This document shows, one piece after another, positions 8,740-40,613 of a stretch of DNA of 40,613 bases. Origin of the DNA: Patescibacteria group bacterium (GTDB lineage Bacteria; Patescibacteriota; 4484-211); contig JAHJGY010000018.1 of the NCBI GenBank assembly GCA_018824115.1, positions 1-40,613 on the forward strand, written 5' to 3'. How positions within the stretch are numbered: the first letter of the stretch is position 1; each line of letters begins with the position of its first letter. The notes beneath the pieces were generated by a model that had not been told where the DNA came from, did not search any database, and worked only from the letters and a program-made list of their open reading frames with translations. The position numbers were made by a program, and so were the translations under genes.

Positions 8740-8782
8740 GTAAGAGGCACACAGTCGTCAGAGACGAAGGTGTGCCTCTTAC
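8740..8782 (-). terminator. stem-loop terminator of 8794-9483
   Basis: perfect 13-bp stem GTAAGAGGCACAC / GTGTGCCTCTTAC. Confidence 0.7.
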
Positions 8783-9802: not shown

Positions 9803-11353
9803 TTACTTAATAGAGTGTAATATTTGCTCTGCCTCTCTGGCTGTTGCCAGCCTAGGTTGGGCGTAGTCCTCAATGATTATGGGAATTAGCTCGTAAGCAA
9901 CTTTCTTATCTTTACCGATTATAAGTTTTACTAGCAAGCCCTGGCGGGTTTTTTCGCTCCACATTTGGTCAAAGATCAAATTGCCCAGCCCGTAGAAAAT
10001 TAATCCACTGTTATATTCTTCGTACTTTTGCACCCAGTGGGCCTGGTCGCCGGTTACTACGTTTGCTCCCCAATCGACCAGCTTCCTTCCGATATCGATC
10101 TGTCCTTGTGTCGGTTGGTGAGTGTATTCGGGGCCCCAATTGGGCATGGTAATTAGGACGTCAACTAGAGGATCAATTTGTTCAACCACGGTTTTAATAA
10201 CTGTCTCGTCCCACCAGGCCACGCCAGTAGAATTCTCGACAGCAGAGCTCAGCTCAGCTGATGCCGCAGGTGAAGTGCCAGCAACAGTGTTAAAAGCAAG
10301 AAATCCCACTTTTAATTGATTGCTAGAGCTATCTTGTAAAGTGATGATTTGCGATTTTAGGGCCTGTTCTATATTCTCACCTGCGCCGGTAAACAGAATG
10401 TTGTTATCGGCGAGCACCTGGGTAGTGTATTCAATGCCGCTCACACCGTAGTCACCGAGATGATTACCGGCAATGCCGACTACATCAACCCCTGCAAAGG
10501 GTAAGCCCTTGATGTAGTTGGTCTGAGCGCAAAAAACGGGTTTGTCGGCAACATAAGGGCAGTCTTCTACGAACGGAGATTTTAAGTTAATAATGGTAAG
10601 ATCTGCGGCTTGGGTTAGAGGCGCGATTTTTTCCCAAGGGTAATTAACATTATTGTATTTGCGGATGCGTTCATCGACGCCGCGAGATAAAACTACCGTG
10701 CCGCCGATTAAGATTTCCCAATCAGCCGCTTGGTGATTGTTGGTGGTAATTACCAGAGAATCTCGGGGCAGTAAGTCGTAGAGTTCAAGGATGTCGTTAT
10801 TATTGTGATAGACGCAGCCTAATCCAAAGTTGGTGCCAATTTTTTCCGGTTCGTTTGTTCCATGGAAGGCGCGGGTGGTTTTCTTGAATGATGTGCTATC
10901 CCAGACTTCTAGGAACATCAATCTGGGCCCGTAAATTCCGCCCAGATCTTGTTTCTTTTCTCCAATCCGCCAGACACTCTCTAGCATATTGTTTTCGCCA
11001 GATCCTGTCGATATAGTGTAAATTTTTAGTAGTTCCTTGCCATAGAAGATATAGTTTTTTTGTTCCGGGATAACTACTACCGACAAGTAGTTAGTGAGAT
11101 CTACTGTGCTGGGGATTTTTGCGAGCCAGTTTTTGAGTCGCGGATCGGTGAGTCGATCAGTTTGCTGGGCGTTTGGGGTTGGGATTTGAGCGGACATAAT
11201 AGTGGGTGAAGTATTGGAAGTTGGCGGTGGAGAAGTGGTTTGGCTAGGTTGTGGGGGGCCTTGCGGTATTCGGGCGATGATTGTGAGTTCTAAAATGATC
11301 AGAAGAAGGGCGACAAGGAGGTTACGGTGAAGCCTGGTCCCGAGGAAATTCAT
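9803..11353 (-). CDS. fusion of YkuD-like (L,D-transpeptidase) domain and CapA/PGA_cap-like metallophosphatase domain
   Basis: N-half AFHGTNEPEKIGTNFGLGCVYHNNNDILELYDLL; C-half IGGTVVLSRGVDE, LTIINLKSP, GIAGNHLGDYG, FYGLGNLIFDQ. Confidence 0.82.
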   Translation of the reverse strand: MNFLGTRLHRNLLVALLLIILELTIIARIPQGPPQPSQTTSPPPTSNTSPTIMSAQIPTPNAQQTDRLTDPRLKNWLAKIPSTVDLTNYLSVVVIPEQKNYIFYGKELLKIYTISTGSGENNMLESVWRIGEKKQDLGGIYGPRLMFLEVWDSTSFKKTTRAFHGTNEPEKIGTNFGLGCVYHNNNDILELYDLLPRDSLVITTNNHQAADWEILIGGTVVLSRGVDERIRKYNNVNYPWEKIAPLTQAADLTIINLKSPFVEDCPYVADKPVFCAQTNYIKGLPFAGVDVVGIAGNHLGDYGVSGIEYTTQVLADNNILFTGAGENIEQALKSQIITLQDSSSNQLKVGFLAFNTVAGTSPAASAELSSAVENSTGVAWWDETVIKTVVEQIDPLVDVLITMPNWGPEYTHQPTQGQIDIGRKLVDWGANVVTGDQAHWVQKYEEYNSGLIFYGLGNLIFDQMWSEKTRQGLLVKLIIGKDKKVAYELIPIIIEDYAQPRLATAREAEQILHSIK

Positions 11354-22927: not shown

Positions 22928-23028
22928 AGTGTTCCAAAGTATACCATGGGAGTGTATAATGTTCAATGAGGCTCAAAAATCGCAAACGTAGTGCCGTGAT
23001 TTTAGTAAGCCGAATTAATTCCGGGCTC

Positions 23029-23083
23029 TTCGAGTCTGAGCCTGAGGGCTTTTCCCTCAGAGTCGAATGACCTGTCGAGTGGG
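23029..23083. repeat. dispersed hairpin repeat B, copy 1
   Basis: TCGAGTCTGAGCCTGAGGGCTTTTCCCTCAGAGTCGAATGACCTGTCGA; near-identical copy at 28478-28530. Confidence 0.8.
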
Positions 23084-24940: not shown

Positions 24941-26794
24941 TTAGCTTTTGTTTAAATTTTTATACACCTCGGGAGGGAGAGTTACCTTTCCAAACTGCTT
25001 CATTTTTTTCTTGCCTTTTTTCTGTTGCCGCAAGAGTTTATCCTTTCTAGTACGATCCCCGCCGTAAAGTTTAGCGGTGACATCTTTGCGGAAAGCTCTC
25101 AGATCTGCTCTAGCAACGACCTTGTTCCCAATTGCTGCTTGAATAGGAATAGAGAATTGTTGCCGCGGAACGAGATTTTTTAATTTATCAACTATCGCTC
25201 GCCCTTTCGCTTCTGCGTGCTGGCGCGGAACTAAAAGGGAAAGAGGGGTAACAATTTCTTTATTCACCAGAAAATCTAATTTAACAATATCTCCTTTTCG
25301 AAAATCTATAATTTCGTAATCAAACGAGGCAAAACCCGAGGTGGCAGATTTTAGTTTATCGAAGAACCCCTCAAGTAACTCACTGAGCGGCAAGTGGTAA
25401 GTTAGTCGGAGGCGCTCATTATTCATTTGACCTATATTTTCTGCATGCTGCTGTTGCCCTCGGCTGTTTTGACAAATCTGCATAATAGCACCTAGGTATT
25501 CCTGTGGGGTAATAATCATTGCTTTAATCCAGGGTTCACGTATTTCATTTATCCGGCTAGAATCTGGTAGTTCGTCAACTGATGTTACAGTAATTAAATT
25601 CCCGTTGACCAGCAGGATCTGGTACTCAACAGTGGGAGTGGTTGGGATGACTTCGGTATTAAACTCTCGGTGCAGGCGTTCCTGACTGATTTCTAGATGG
25701 AATTGTCCTAGGCAACCAATGCGGAAACCACTACCTAAAGCGGGTGAGGATTCTGGTTTGTATGTCAGCGCAGCATCATTAAGAGACAATTTGTTAAGTG
25801 CATCACGGAGTTCGTTAATCTGGCTGGCTTTGGCAGGATAAATCCCTGCAAACACCCGTGGCTTAATTTCTTTGTATCCCGGCAAGGCTTTGATATTTGA
25901 CATTTCGGCTTCGATATTTGTTACAGTATCTCCTGGCCGGCAGAGTTTAATATCTTTGATTCCCGTAGCCAGGTATCCGACTTCCCCTGTGAGTAATTGG
26001 TTTTGAGGTAGTAAGTTGGCCTTTAGGTACCCACATTCCGTCGGAGAGAAAATAATGTTACTGGCTATTAATCTTAATTTTTGGAAAGAACTGCCAAGCT
26101 TGGCAATTTTACCATCCACGACTTTGACTAGGAGGACTACGCCTTTATGAGGATCGTAAAAAGAGTCAAAAACTAGCGCCCGTAGTGGACCAGACTCTTG
26201 ACCTGTCGGGTGTGGAACTCTGTTAATGATGGCTTGTAGAAGTGAGCGGGTCCCTTCACCGGTTTTTCCTGAAGTGTATATGAATTCATCCTTGGTGAAT
26301 CCGAGATTTATAAGCTGCTCCTCTGCAGTTGAATCAACATTGAGATCAATTTTATTAATTACGGGTATTAGTCTGAGTGAGAGATCTTTAGCCTTCTGGT
26401 AGTGGGCTAGCGTTTGTGCTTGTACACCTTGCGCTAGGTCGACTAGTAAAACCGCGCCTTCGCAAGCCGCTAGGGAGCGGGAAACTTCGTAGGAGAAATC
26501 AACATGACCTGGGGTGTCAATGAGATTGAGGATGTAGTTAGTATCCTCTAAAGCTAAGCTTTGAGGATCTTTAAAGCTTAGCTTTGTTGGCGGTGTATAT
26601 TCGATTCGAATCGGTTGGAGTTTAATGGTAACCCCCCTTTCTTGTTCTAGGTCTAGTTTATCTAGATATCGCACCCGCATTTCCCGTTGAGGGATGGTGT
26701 TGGTGATTTCTAGAATTCGATCCGCCAAGGTGGATTTTCCGTGATCAATGTGAGCGATGATAGAAAAGTTGCGAATGAATTTTTGTGATTCCAT
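24941..26794 (-). CDS. lepA: elongation factor 4 (LepA)
   Basis: IRNFSIIAHIDHGKSTLADRILE, LIDTPGHVDFSYEVSRSLAACEGAVLLVD, C-terminal AKLYGGDRTRKDKLLRQQKKGKKKMKQFGKV. Confidence 0.96.
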   Translation of the reverse strand: MESQKFIRNFSIIAHIDHGKSTLADRILEITNTIPQREMRVRYLDKLDLEQERGVTIKLQPIRIEYTPPTKLSFKDPQSLALEDTNYILNLIDTPGHVDFSYEVSRSLAACEGAVLLVDLAQGVQAQTLAHYQKAKDLSLRLIPVINKIDLNVDSTAEEQLINLGFTKDEFIYTSGKTGEGTRSLLQAIINRVPHPTGQESGPLRALVFDSFYDPHKGVVLLVKVVDGKIAKLGSSFQKLRLIASNIIFSPTECGYLKANLLPQNQLLTGEVGYLATGIKDIKLCRPGDTVTNIEAEMSNIKALPGYKEIKPRVFAGIYPAKASQINELRDALNKLSLNDAALTYKPESSPALGSGFRIGCLGQFHLEISQERLHREFNTEVIPTTPTVEYQILLVNGNLITVTSVDELPDSSRINEIREPWIKAMIITPQEYLGAIMQICQNSRGQQQHAENIGQMNNERLRLTYHLPLSELLEGFFDKLKSATSGFASFDYEIIDFRKGDIVKLDFLVNKEIVTPLSLLVPRQHAEAKGRAIVDKLKNLVPRQQFSIPIQAAIGNKVVARADLRAFRKDVTAKLYGGDRTRKDKLLRQQKKGKKKMKQFGKVTLPPEVYKNLNKS

Positions 26795-26799
26795 AGGTG

Positions 26800-26842
26800 A
26801 AAAATAGGGATCATCCCTAAAATAGGGATGATCCCTATTTTT
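26800..26842. repeat. dispersed double-palindrome repeat A, copy 1
   Basis: perfect 20-bp inverted arms AAAAATAGGGATCATCCCTA / TAGGGATGATCCCTATTTTT with AAA centre. Confidence 0.9.
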
Positions 26843-26963
26843 AGTTACTTGCCCGCAGGGATATTATACCGGAGTTCTTCGTAAAATCCTTCTTGTGGTA
26901 AGAGTTTACATCGTATGTGGCGAGATGGTAAGATGAGGTTGTTTTTAAAGTGATAGCCTTATT

Positions 26964-28394: not shown

Positions 28395-28477
28395 TGAAAC
28401 TCTGAAAAAGCAAGCAACAGCACAGCTTTTTCAGCAAGTTGAACTAACCCTGCTTGTCCGCCTATGGCGGAAGCTAG

Positions 28478-28530
28478 TCGAGTCTCAGCCTGAGGGCTTT
28501 TCCCTCAGAGTCGAATGACTTGTCGAAGGG
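28478..28530. repeat. dispersed hairpin repeat B, copy 2
   Basis: TCGAGTCTCAGCCTGAGGGCTTTTCCCTCAGAGTCGAATGACTTGTCGA. Confidence 0.8.
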
Positions 28531-28539
28531 TAGACTTGA

Positions 28540-28821
28540 CTAAATCAGATCGTCTGGGCCAATGGGTTCGGACTTTTCCCCTGTTGGCCGCGCCTGACAA
28601 GGGCTTACCCTTTGTTGGGTTGGTTCCGCAAATTCCTGCACGCGGCCAATAATGCCGGTAGTCAGCCGCACCTTGTGACCGCGCGGATGGGTGTCTTTTT
28701 TAGTTAACACATCTTGGACAACCCCTGTTGTAAGTTCCCCAGTGGTGTAATCTTTCTTCTGTGCTACCCTTACTTTGTCACCCGGTTTAGGCTTGCGTTG
28801 GTTCATCGTTCGCTCGGCCAT
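28540..28821 (-). CDS. YwbE-like (DUF2196) family protein
   Basis: PGDKVRVAQKKDYTTGELTTGVVQDVLTKKDTHPRGHKVRLTTGIIGRVQE. Confidence 0.8.
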   Translation of the reverse strand: MAERTMNQRKPKPGDKVRVAQKKDYTTGELTTGVVQDVLTKKDTHPRGHKVRLTTGIIGRVQEFAEPTQQRVSPCQARPTGEKSEPIGPDDLI

Positions 28822-33568: not shown

Positions 33569-34351
33569 TTAGCTTTTTGGGGTCTGCCGATGGAAGGTTT
33601 CTTTAACTGCGGTTAGTGTTGCGCTAAGGGTTTTGTAGGAGCCGTTGAAGAAAACGGCGGCACCGATAGTCATAATCATTAGCCCGGTTACTAGACCCGC
33701 AGACATTCCGGAATTGGTATCGGGTAATTCTTGGGCACCTAAAACCTCACCTTCATTTTCCGGAGTAGGAGTAGGCATTGGTTTATCGGTTGGTGTCGGG
33801 GTGATTTCCGGAGTTAATGTAGGAGTTGGTTCTATTGTTGGTGTAGGCGTAGGTGTAGGTTCAACTGTAGGAGTAGGGGTAGGTTCTGGCGTAGGCGTAG
33901 GTGTAGGTTCAACTGTAGGAGTAGGAGTAGGTTCTGGTGTGGGCGTTGGCGTAGGAGTTGGGGTAGGAGTCGGAGTAGGCTCCGGCGTGGGGGTAGGGGT
34001 AGGTGTAGGGGTCGGTGTTGGTTTACAGCAATAACTACCTCCAAAATTTATTGATTCACTACTGTATCCAACCAAGGTAACTTTAAAAATGTGGCTGGTA
34101 CAGATGTCGATTTCGTAGTTAAGCCAATTTATTTCTCGGATATCTTCAGGCCATACATTTTCAAACTTTTCAATCTCATTGCCATCAACGTAAAAGATAA
34201 GTGTGTAAAAAGTACCCGGTCCGGAAACTTTAGCGCCCCCTGTGTAACAGTCGGCCCAAATCTCCGGGTGACAAGCATAAGTAGGCTTGCTGCCAACAGA
34301 AAGGCAGAATATGATCGTAGTTATTAGAAAAGGAATCAGCTTTTTTTTCAT
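33569..34351 (-). CDS. secreted Pro-Thr-repeat surface protein with LPxT-like motif and C-terminal TM
   Basis: signal peptide, long (TPTP/EPTP) repeat, then [15 protein letters not shown] + TM segment. Confidence 0.8.
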
Positions 34352-38207: not shown

Positions 38208-39242
38208 TTAATGTTCGGATTTGCGGCGCTTTTTTTCTTTTAAGCGTTTTTCTTCCGAGTCAGTAAGTCTCCCGCCATGCCGCTCCTCGCGCATGAGGAA
38301 TGTATCATAATCTTCCAGAGCACTGGCTACTGCCTCTTCGGCTTTTTCCAGTAATTCGGCCGATGCGGGATCTTCGGCTAGAAGTGCTTTTTGTGCTGAC
38401 GTTACTGCGGACTGTAACCCAGCTTGGAAGCTAATTCTAGGAATTCCGGAAATAGCATCATTTAAGCGGCTTAGTCGCTCCCAGGGCCTTAGCTGTCCTT
38501 GTATTCGGTCAGATTCGGCACGCAGGGCGGTAAAGTCTTCAACGGGAATTCTTTCTTGGTCCAGAGTGTCTACTAGGTTTTGGTCTAGGCTGGCAAGCAT
38601 TTCCGAAAAGATAAGCTGGGCTTCTGGAGGTAATTGGGCGATTCTTTCCCGGAGATTTGTTAATGTATCTGCCAAGCCTTGAGCCTGGCGTTCAGCTACT
38701 TCCACGTTATCGGTAAGTCTTTTCCCCTCCTCCTGATTTGCCACTTCTGTTTCTGCCACTGTTTCTTCTTGCGGAGCTGGAACAATTTCCTCTGCCGGGG
38801 TAGCAACCTCGGCCGCAGATTTGGGTGTAAGGTGCGTCTCTTGGATTGCCTTTACTATTAGCCCGTCTTGTACCAATATTTCCGGCCGAAAGTTGTCCGG
38901 CCGTCCTTCTACAACGGCCAGGGGGACAGGTTTACCGTCTTCATCATGTGTGTAGACTAATACTGCCTGCACAGGCTTGCCATTTGTTTCCGGGTCTTTG
39001 ACTGGTTCTCGCCGGTACACGGCCTCCATTGATACTTGCGAGCGTTTGTCTTCTGTACCGAGAACGCCTCGGCCATCGTAAAAATTACCCTCGTGGTCGA
39101 GTAGTGTTACCGGGGTAACTCGGATGACTCCGTCCCCAAGTAACCGCTGGATTCTCGTCTCGTCGGTTTCTACGGGCGCGGTTGTCTCTGAAGGAACTCC
39201 TGCTTCCACTCCCGCTCTTTGTTGTGATCCTGTCATAACCAT
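38208..39242 (-). CDS. hypothetical protein, acidic/coiled-coil-rich, basic C-terminus
   Basis: 344-aa ORF; EKRLKEKKRRKSEH tail; no family recognised. Confidence 0.7.
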   Translation of the reverse strand: MVMTGSQQRAGVEAGVPSETTAPVETDETRIQRLLGDGVIRVTPVTLLDHEGNFYDGRGVLGTEDKRSQVSMEAVYRREPVKDPETNGKPVQAVLVYTHDEDGKPVPLAVVEGRPDNFRPEILVQDGLIVKAIQETHLTPKSAAEVATPAEEIVPAPQEETVAETEVANQEEGKRLTDNVEVAERQAQGLADTLTNLRERIAQLPPEAQLIFSEMLASLDQNLVDTLDQERIPVEDFTALRAESDRIQGQLRPWERLSRLNDAISGIPRISFQAGLQSAVTSAQKALLAEDPASAELLEKAEEAVASALEDYDTFLMREERHGGRLTDSEEKRLKEKKRRKSEH

Positions 39243-39304: not shown

Positions 39305-39337
39305 TAGGGATCATCCCTAAAATAGGGATGATCCCTA
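39305..39337. repeat. dispersed double-palindrome repeat A, copy 2
   Basis: TAGGGATCATCCCTAAAATAGGGATGATCCCTA, identical to 26805-26837. Confidence 0.9.
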
Positions 39338-39359: not shown

Positions 39360-40613
39360 TTATTCCCAGCCGCGGAGTCGGTAGTACTCGGTGAGCATTT
39401 TCTCAAAATTTTCTTTACCAATGGCTATGGTTTGATCTCTAATTTCCATAGGATAATCCATTATTCTGGTTGGAACGGAGTCATTTTCCTTAGTTAGTCC
39501 CAGTTTCTTATTGATCTCTCGTTCTTTCTGGACAATTCTCTCTCCGAATTCCTGGGGAGTATTAGCTGGTAATTCAACGTTAAATAAGACTTCGAAGCTT
39601 TTGATATATGAATCGTTGTCCAAGAAATCGCCGGCAAACATACAAATACCAATACTGTCTCGGAAAGCGGATTGGTTTTGCTCACTAATGACGAGCGCGG
39701 CTTTGTTTTCTGTACTTAACGCGGTTGATTTGTCTGCTAATTCGGCCCATAGAGTTAGACCTTTGCAGTGATCTCCTCCGGTAGGGCAGGTGGCGTAGTG
39801 GAGAATTCCTCCCCAGGTTCCGCGCGGATCCCAAGCGGGTAATTCTAGCCCTTTGGCATGGGCCAGGTTAGAAGGTGTTCCGGGGAATTTTTCCGCGGCA
39901 CGAATTGAGCCCTCGGCTAGAACATCTCCAATACCTTTTCTATCTCCGATCAACTTGATTAGTTCTAATTCTTTCTCAATAGTTACTGGTTGATCGTTAA
40001 TTAATCCTTTTTCTACGCATTCTTTGTACCAGGCAATAGTGGCGCCGGTACTAATAGTGTCAAGGCCATAGTCATCGCAGAGATAAGCGGCTTCGCTAAT
40101 GGCGTTTAAGTCGAAGTTACCGCAGCTAGCTCCTAGTGCCCAGATAGATTCATATTCTGGCCCGTGGATCTCTTCTTGGCGGTAGGAAGTTTTAACATAA
40201 CGCGTGCAGGCCAGGGGGCAGGACCAGCATGCGGATTTTTTAGTGACTATCTTTTGGAAAGCTTTGTAACCAATGGAATTAAGTTCCTCTGCCGTTAGGT
40301 GATTGCGGCGGTAGTTACTGGCCGGGTACGTTTGTGAGTTCGAGGAGATATTTGTGGCGATTGGTGTGCAGTGAGAGAGAAAATCTGGGCTTTGTTCGTA
40401 TTCAAGCCGTTTTTTGGTGAGATCCTTAATTAGTTCGGTTACTTCGGGTTTGTTCGCTGTCTGACTCATTGTTTGGTTCCTTTTTACAACAATGGCTTTA
40501 AGTTTTTTATAGCCAAAGTGCCAGCCAGTACCAGTTCGGCCGGCGGCGCGGTCATCAAATTTAAGACAGGCAAACCGGGCCAGGTTTTCTCCACCCCGGC
40601 CAATACAGCCAAC
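39360..40613 (-). CDS. aldehyde:ferredoxin oxidoreductase (partial, runs off the right edge)
   Basis: CWSCPLACTRYV cluster motif, LELPAWDPRG, SIGICMFAG; upstream of the predicted Met the frame stays open to the edge and encodes VGCIGRGGENLARFACLKFDDRAAGRTGTGWHFGYKKLKAIVVKRNQT. Confidence 0.92.
   Translation of the reverse strand, partial: VGCIGRGGENLARFACLKFDDRAAGRTGTGWHFGYKKLKAIVVKRNQTMSQTANKPEVTELIKDLTKKRLEYEQSPDFLSHCTPIATNISSNSQTYPASNYRRNHLTAEELNSIGYKAFQKIVTKKSACWSCPLACTRYVKTSYRQEEIHGPEYESIWALGASCGNFDLNAISEAAYLCDDYGLDTISTGATIAWYKECVEKGLINDQPVTIEKELELIKLIGDRKGIGDVLAEGSIRAAEKFPGTPSNLAHAKGLELPAWDPRGTWGGILHYATCPTGGDHCKGLTLWAELADKSTALSTENKAALVISEQNQSAFRDSIGICMFAGDFLDNDSYIKSFEVLFNVELPANTPQEFGERIVQKEREINKKLGLTKENDSVPTRIMDYPMEIRDQTIAIGKENFEKMLTEYYRLRGWE

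Follow-up and report, generated by a model that had tools for sequence, protein, structure and literature searches.

A dispersed, REPIN-like double palindrome and a probable cognate RAYT-like transposase in a 1-Mb genome of the Patescibacteria

The window, that is, the whole stretch of 40,613 nucleotides analysed here, carries lepA (elongation factor 4) on the minus strand at 24941-26794 and, diverging from it, proS on the plus strand; the Pfam assignments of the two genes agree with the divergent arrangement given in the preliminary description. Between them lies a 33-nt double palindrome, TAGGGATCATCCCTA-AAA-TAGGGATGATCCCTA, which is found letter for letter at 26805-26837 and again at 39305-39337, so that the identical repeat described earlier is exact at both loci. 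The number of matches to the 33-mer expected from 100 dinucleotide shuffles is 0. The left 15-nt unit, TAGGGATCATCCCTA, occupies 26805-26819 and the right unit, TAGGGATGATCCCTA, its reverse complement, 26823-26837, neither being assigned a strand. The unit (TAGGGATSATCCCTA) is itself a near-perfect palindrome of 15 nt, and the doublet consists of two such units, inverted relative to each other and separated by 3 nt. At the lepA copy, A5/T5 edges extend the feature to 26800-26842 (no strand assigned), and the arms (26800-26819 and 26823-26842) are perfect over 20 bp around a 3-nt centre, as had been noted. The distance of 5 nt from the lepA start codon reported for the element holds for these 20-bp arms, whereas the repeat proper lies 10 nt from it. 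The second copy (39305-39337, no strand assigned) is located between an aldehyde ferredoxin oxidoreductase-like ORF (39360-40469, minus) and the ORF 38208-39242 (minus), 22 nt past the stop of the former.

RNA folding of 26796-26860 yields a single 20-bp stem (−31.9 kcal mol−1, z −6.8), that of the 33-mer alone a 15-bp stem of about −25 kcal mol−1, and that of a lone 15-nt unit a 6-bp hairpin, in line with the earlier suggestion that the element can fold as one long or as small stems. A search of the whole window against Rfam gave no match over the gathering score.

The gene lepA is a neighbour and not a part of the element. A TATAAT on the minus strand at 26863-26868, a consensus match that may be the lepA -10 hexamer, sits 68 nt upstream of the lepA ATG with the element in between, and at the outer edge of the element, 6 nt from the ATG, a weak TATTTT remains. 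Because of this placement between TATAAT and ATG, and of the weak hexamer at its edge, both of them consensus matches, an effect of the element on lepA expression, either as a structured leader or through a changed promoter, is possible. In five relatives (loci L177-L181) 5-7 nt separate a -10-like hexamer from the lepA ATG (compared with 26795-26868 of this window), and the arrangement of these sequences suggests that their lepA transcripts are leaderless. The lepA copy is most simply regarded as an insertion upstream of lepA, and neither window copy is likely to exist in order to serve the gene next to it.

Other repeats are present in the window. A 54-nt repeat, 93% identical between 23025-23078 and 28473-28526, contains the hairpin CTGAGGGCTTTTCCCTCAG and has no Rfam match; it was considered as a second family and set aside, as it has only two copies genome-wide and no link was found. 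Degenerate repeats with a 12-nt period at 33759-34025, within the ORF 33569-34351 (minus), encode a low-complexity repeat, and an imperfect 20-bp inverted repeat with a 3-nt spacer, GTAAGAGGCACACAGTCGTC / GACGAAGGTGTGCCTCTTAC, is located at 8740-8782.

Copies were counted by pattern searches, allowing at most 3 mismatches, of the genome of 1,008,991 bases (86 contigs, 95.8% complete). Doublets were found at 14 loci, 9 of them identical to the window copies. One of these multi-unit loci (C27) is a triple, with three units at an 18-nt period. Single units occur at 2 further loci, so doublets are the commoner form (14 vs 2). The preliminary description had proposed such a count and had allowed that the two copies of the window might be the only ones, which the 14 doublets contradict, or that they might be an artefact of duplication in the assembly. 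The latter is ruled out by comparison of all loci, at which every copy has its own, unrelated flanks. Contig breaks place a few copies close to contig ends.

The column profile of the copies shows conservation at or near 2 bits across the 15-nt unit at each end of the element, which falls to 1.1 bits at positions +1/+2 outside the unit and to <0.8 from +3 onward. This sharp edge of conservation indicates a copied unit rather than shared neighbourhoods. The outward flanks display a weak preference, TTATTnGCTT, which may belong to the element or reflect a preference for certain targets. On the outward strand, the base that adjoins the TAGGG foot on its outer side is T or A in 27 of the 28 ends, and the GTAG form of the GT[AG]G foot of classical REPs is present at most once among them. 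No consistent polarity of the flanks was found when copies were oriented by their AAA/TTT spacer, and inspection by eye revealed no constant direct duplication in the flanks. The T-runs seen at the ends of the lepA copy are not conserved in general.

Of the 14 doublets, eight fall between genes, as do both single units, and the other six lie inside ORFs. Several copies are near gene starts (10-26 nt), and others are in the middle of ORFs or past stops. The reading frame is open through all six in-ORF doublets, which are placed in the genes of Elp3 (C21), two glycosyltransferases (both C34) and UvrC (C78), in the last codons of a SufB/D-like ORF (C47) and, as the triple unit, in pheT, the gene of the phenylalanyl-tRNA synthetase beta chain (C27). 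The element exactly fills a 14-residue gap in Elp3 and a 15-residue gap in UvrC relative to solved homologues, and on account of these gaps both copies truly add sequence, about 42-45 nt. The glycosyltransferase copies are in frame, and there the insertion is unproven as the Pfam and PDB alignments do not cover the element. For PheT, the linker with the copy is not longer than its counterparts in relatives, with no net lengthening.

Four genes of the Y1 transposase family were found in the genome, and one of them, RAYT-like, lies between two doublets (C39:22158-22190 and C39:22881-22913). This gene (C39:22217-22873) has a GTG start, encodes 218 aa and is intact; it is situated 26 nt past one doublet and 7 nt ahead of the other. 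A candidate for the REP-associated tyrosine transposase that the preliminary description had proposed to look for is thus present. Alignment of the protein with homologues from 21 related genomes or loci spans its length, and H85, H87, Y145, H147, N149 and P150 (HFH; Y145-I-H-x-N-P) are invariant in all 22 sequences. The protein has the HUH motif, the single catalytic Tyr (Y145) and, as predicted, the Y1 fold by which a RAYT is recognised. Its match to the NCBIfam model of REP-associated tyrosine transposases (NF047646; E 2.6e-7) scores 30.6 bits, below the cut-off of 80, and that to Pfam Y1_Tnp scores 20.2, below the gathering score of 23. The AlphaFold model of the protein (mean pLDDT 91.9) has 4er8, a RAYT bound to a REP hairpin, as its top PDB fold match (E 4.2e-6, TM 0.66 by target); this is the sole fold match with E <1e-3, and transposases of the IS200 family rank next.

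The other three Y1 genes of the genome score over the Pfam gathering score, and each is adjoined by a palindrome of its own. The C71 gene is flanked on either side by AAGGGTAAGCCCTT, of which the genome has eight exact copies, and the C58 gene likewise by CAAGAGCAAGGCTCTTG, with three exact copies and variants; the C44 gene is followed by a larger palindrome with a related copy nearby. In the window AAGGGTAAGCCCTT occurs twice, at 10497-10510, inside the PGA_cap-domain ORF 9803-11353 (minus), and at 28599-28612.

The pairing of transposase and palindrome extends to relatives. The two closest homologues of the C39 RAYT (56% and 53% identical) belong to other genera of the same family, and the doublets flanking them have the same plan in other letters (AGGGTGACACCCT/AGGGTGTCACCCT and AGGGTTTAACCCT/AGGGTTAAACCCT), with 9 and 25 doublets genome-wide, respectively. 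The exact sequence of the element is found in 0 of 96 relatives, nor does it occur in the GTDB contig collection, from which its own genome was left out. As the exact letters are absent from relatives and the plan is common, the letters are species-specific and the plan is shared. When the generic plan (AGGG-N5-CCCT, spacer, AGGG-N5-CCCT) was searched in 380 genomes of the phylum, doublets were obtained in 19 genomes, with a maximum of 25 copies in one; the reversed pattern, used as a control, matched 1/380 genomes, so chance matches are rare. A RAYT homologue is present in 17 of the 19 doublet-bearing genomes as compared to 137 of the 380 overall (Fisher p 1.2e-6). The two units complement each other at 205/230 of their central positions among the 46 distinct doublets listed. 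A shared word of at least 14 nt between the 200-nt flanks was detected at 58 of 81 RAYT loci, a few of which are near-duplicates, as against 1 of 241 controls, taken as intervals of the same length from the same loci. The named records with the nearest RAYT homologues are overwhelmingly Patescibacteria, among them Woesebacteria, Amesbacteria, Levybacteria, Daviesbacteria, Saccharibacteria and others.

The element is very probably a REPIN-like, non-autonomous miniature mobile element that relies on its cognate RAYT, acting in trans, to move. This reading brings together the multiple copies with their sharp boundary, the RAYT bracketed by doublets and its fold match to 4er8, the pairing in relatives and the extra residues in proteins. 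We infer that the C39 RAYT moves the doublet, and does so in trans and through a single-stranded mechanism. As single-stranded DNA the doublet would fold into one long or two small hairpins, which the RAYT probably recognises; it would then cut with its catalytic tyrosine and copy or move the doublet to new sites. RAYT mobilisation of hairpin doublets has been proposed for REPINs (PMC3116915), and the fold match to a hairpin-bound RAYT is consistent with such a mechanism, the most likely one for the C39 protein. In the material covered, one genome per species with relatives too distant for empty sites to be seen at the DNA level, neither movement nor excision of a copy, nor polymorphism between strains, was observed.

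The preliminary description had considered the element to be either REP/MITE-like or a regulatory switch, and had likened the lepA copy to a bidirectional terminator. The REP/REPIN part is upheld by the 14 doublets and the bracketed RAYT, while a switch as the general role disagrees with copies in all gene contexts, six of them in ORFs; for the same reason the terminator is unsupported as a general role. That the copies are bidirectional terminators or attenuators, the repeat at two loci being a coincidental reuse of a good terminator, is very improbable. The A5/T5 edges of the lepA copy, one terminator-like prediction on the minus strand, the stability of the 33-mer stem and the position of the second copy shortly after a stop codon would suit such a role; however, it does not require 9 loci to agree in every letter over 33 nt, and the varying T-runs, the mixed contexts with copies in pheT and uvrC, and a lepA copy that is upstream of its gene all speak against it. 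Still less credence is given to a binding site of a regulator whose regulon takes in lepA and other genes. Palindromic symmetry and the several copies close to gene starts are what such a site would show, but the neighbours (lepA, Elp3, glycosyltransferases, uvrC, pheT and sufB-like) have no evident theme, copies also occur mid-ORF and past stops, and the motif is wholly different between genera, where it tracks the local RAYT.

A MITE of a DDE-transposase insertion sequence, with terminal inverted repeats and target-site duplication, is just as improbable as a regulon: the element is short, non-coding, dispersed and inverted-repeat, but its palindrome makes up the whole of it and leaves no room for internal sequence, the flanks as inspected by eye share no constant direct duplication, and the sole gene that it brackets is a Y1/HUH transposase. 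It is unlikely, too, that a domesticated RAYT has the palindromes as its cellular substrate (e.g. for DNA maintenance) and that they are homogenised by gene conversion and not by transposition. Nine identical cores in diverged flanks are also expected from conversion, and the three-unit arrays in the same pheT linker of two genera, with other letters in each, can be read in this way; the Elp3 and UvrC insertions, however, show arrival at new sites, and the absence of the sequence from the 96 relatives implies fast turnover.

The arrays concerned have an 18-nt period and lie at C27:40060-40110 in the present genome (G000) and at C7:7127-7157 in G001. In the PheT linker of G002, a search for a degenerate array gave a best score of 10/15, which is met by 9% of random windows. 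The two arrays may go back to an ancestral one that was rewritten in place, or to two insertions. A phylum-wide reading, in which palindromes of RAYT systems throughout the Patescibacteria evolve with their transposase, invade genes in frame and have their old copies rewritten in situ to the current type, is doubtful; if true, such rewriting would make RAYT an agent of concerted sequence replacement besides insertion.

RAYT and REPIN are known from large genomes, mostly of Proteobacteria, and have been reported to be tied to large genome size (PMC6006769), a paper from which Patescibacteria are absent. No paper on RAYT, REPIN or REP-associated transposases in Patescibacteria, candidate phyla or Microgenomates was found in the literature searched, which excludes subscription papers and preprints. 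The present data show RAYT homologues to be common (137 of 380 sampled) in Patescibacteria genomes of roughly 1 Mb. Their palindromes are very small and easily recognised, and their letters vary between genera under a constant plan, which provides a natural series of matched transposase-hairpin pairs of use for deriving recognition rules. The in-frame copies in Elp3, UvrC and the phenylalanyl-tRNA synthetase beta chain represent peptide insertion by palindromes with a known candidate for the mobilising enzyme. RAYT-like genes accompanied by palindromes that lack GTAG have been described before (TIRtrons, PMC3733652; subclass 2.6 and class 3, PMC6006769), as have intragenic REPs that keep the reading frame (PMC3733652).

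Like the REPINs or REPs with RAYT (TnpA-REP), the 'REPtrons' of Pseudomonas and E. coli, the element is a dispersed inverted doublet that flanks a Y1/HUH transposase gene; as in REPtrons, each transposase of one genome has its own palindrome family, and single units are rarer than doublets (PMC3116915, PMC6006769). It differs from REPINs in its unit, a near-perfect palindrome of 13-15 nt with a 3-5-nt spacer and 33 nt in all, whereas about 71 nt separate the two 16-mers of P. fluorescens GI (PMC3116915, PMC6006769). Its copy number of 14, modest for a REP/REPIN, is low as compared to Pseudomonas REPINs, and its RAYT is hosted by 1-Mb genomes rather than the mainly larger ones reported (PMC6006769). 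TIRtrons are tyrosine transposases with non-GTAG inverted-repeat flanks, some of them double-palindromic (PMC3733652), and the present system resembles these TIRtrons/TIRYT in its RAYT-like gene, palindromic flanks without GTAG, moderate copy numbers and dimers; they are known from other bacteria, and the likeness concerns these described features (PMC3733652). The in-frame palindromes in protein genes, including a repair gene (uvr), recall the Rickettsia palindromic elements (RPE) and other intragenic REPs (PMC3733652). The CGTC repeats, including the intragenic RPE-4 and RPE-6, had no associated transposase in the survey (PMC3733652), whereas a cognate RAYT is present in the genome here. The Y1/HUH fold and subterminal hairpins are shared with IS200/IS605 elements (IS608, ISDra2), but the C39 gene is not multi-copy with these ends and is nearer in sequence and fold to RAYT than to TnpA-IS200. 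The element works like a REPIN/RAYT system, and as a classical REP it fails in one tested feature, the GTAG foot.
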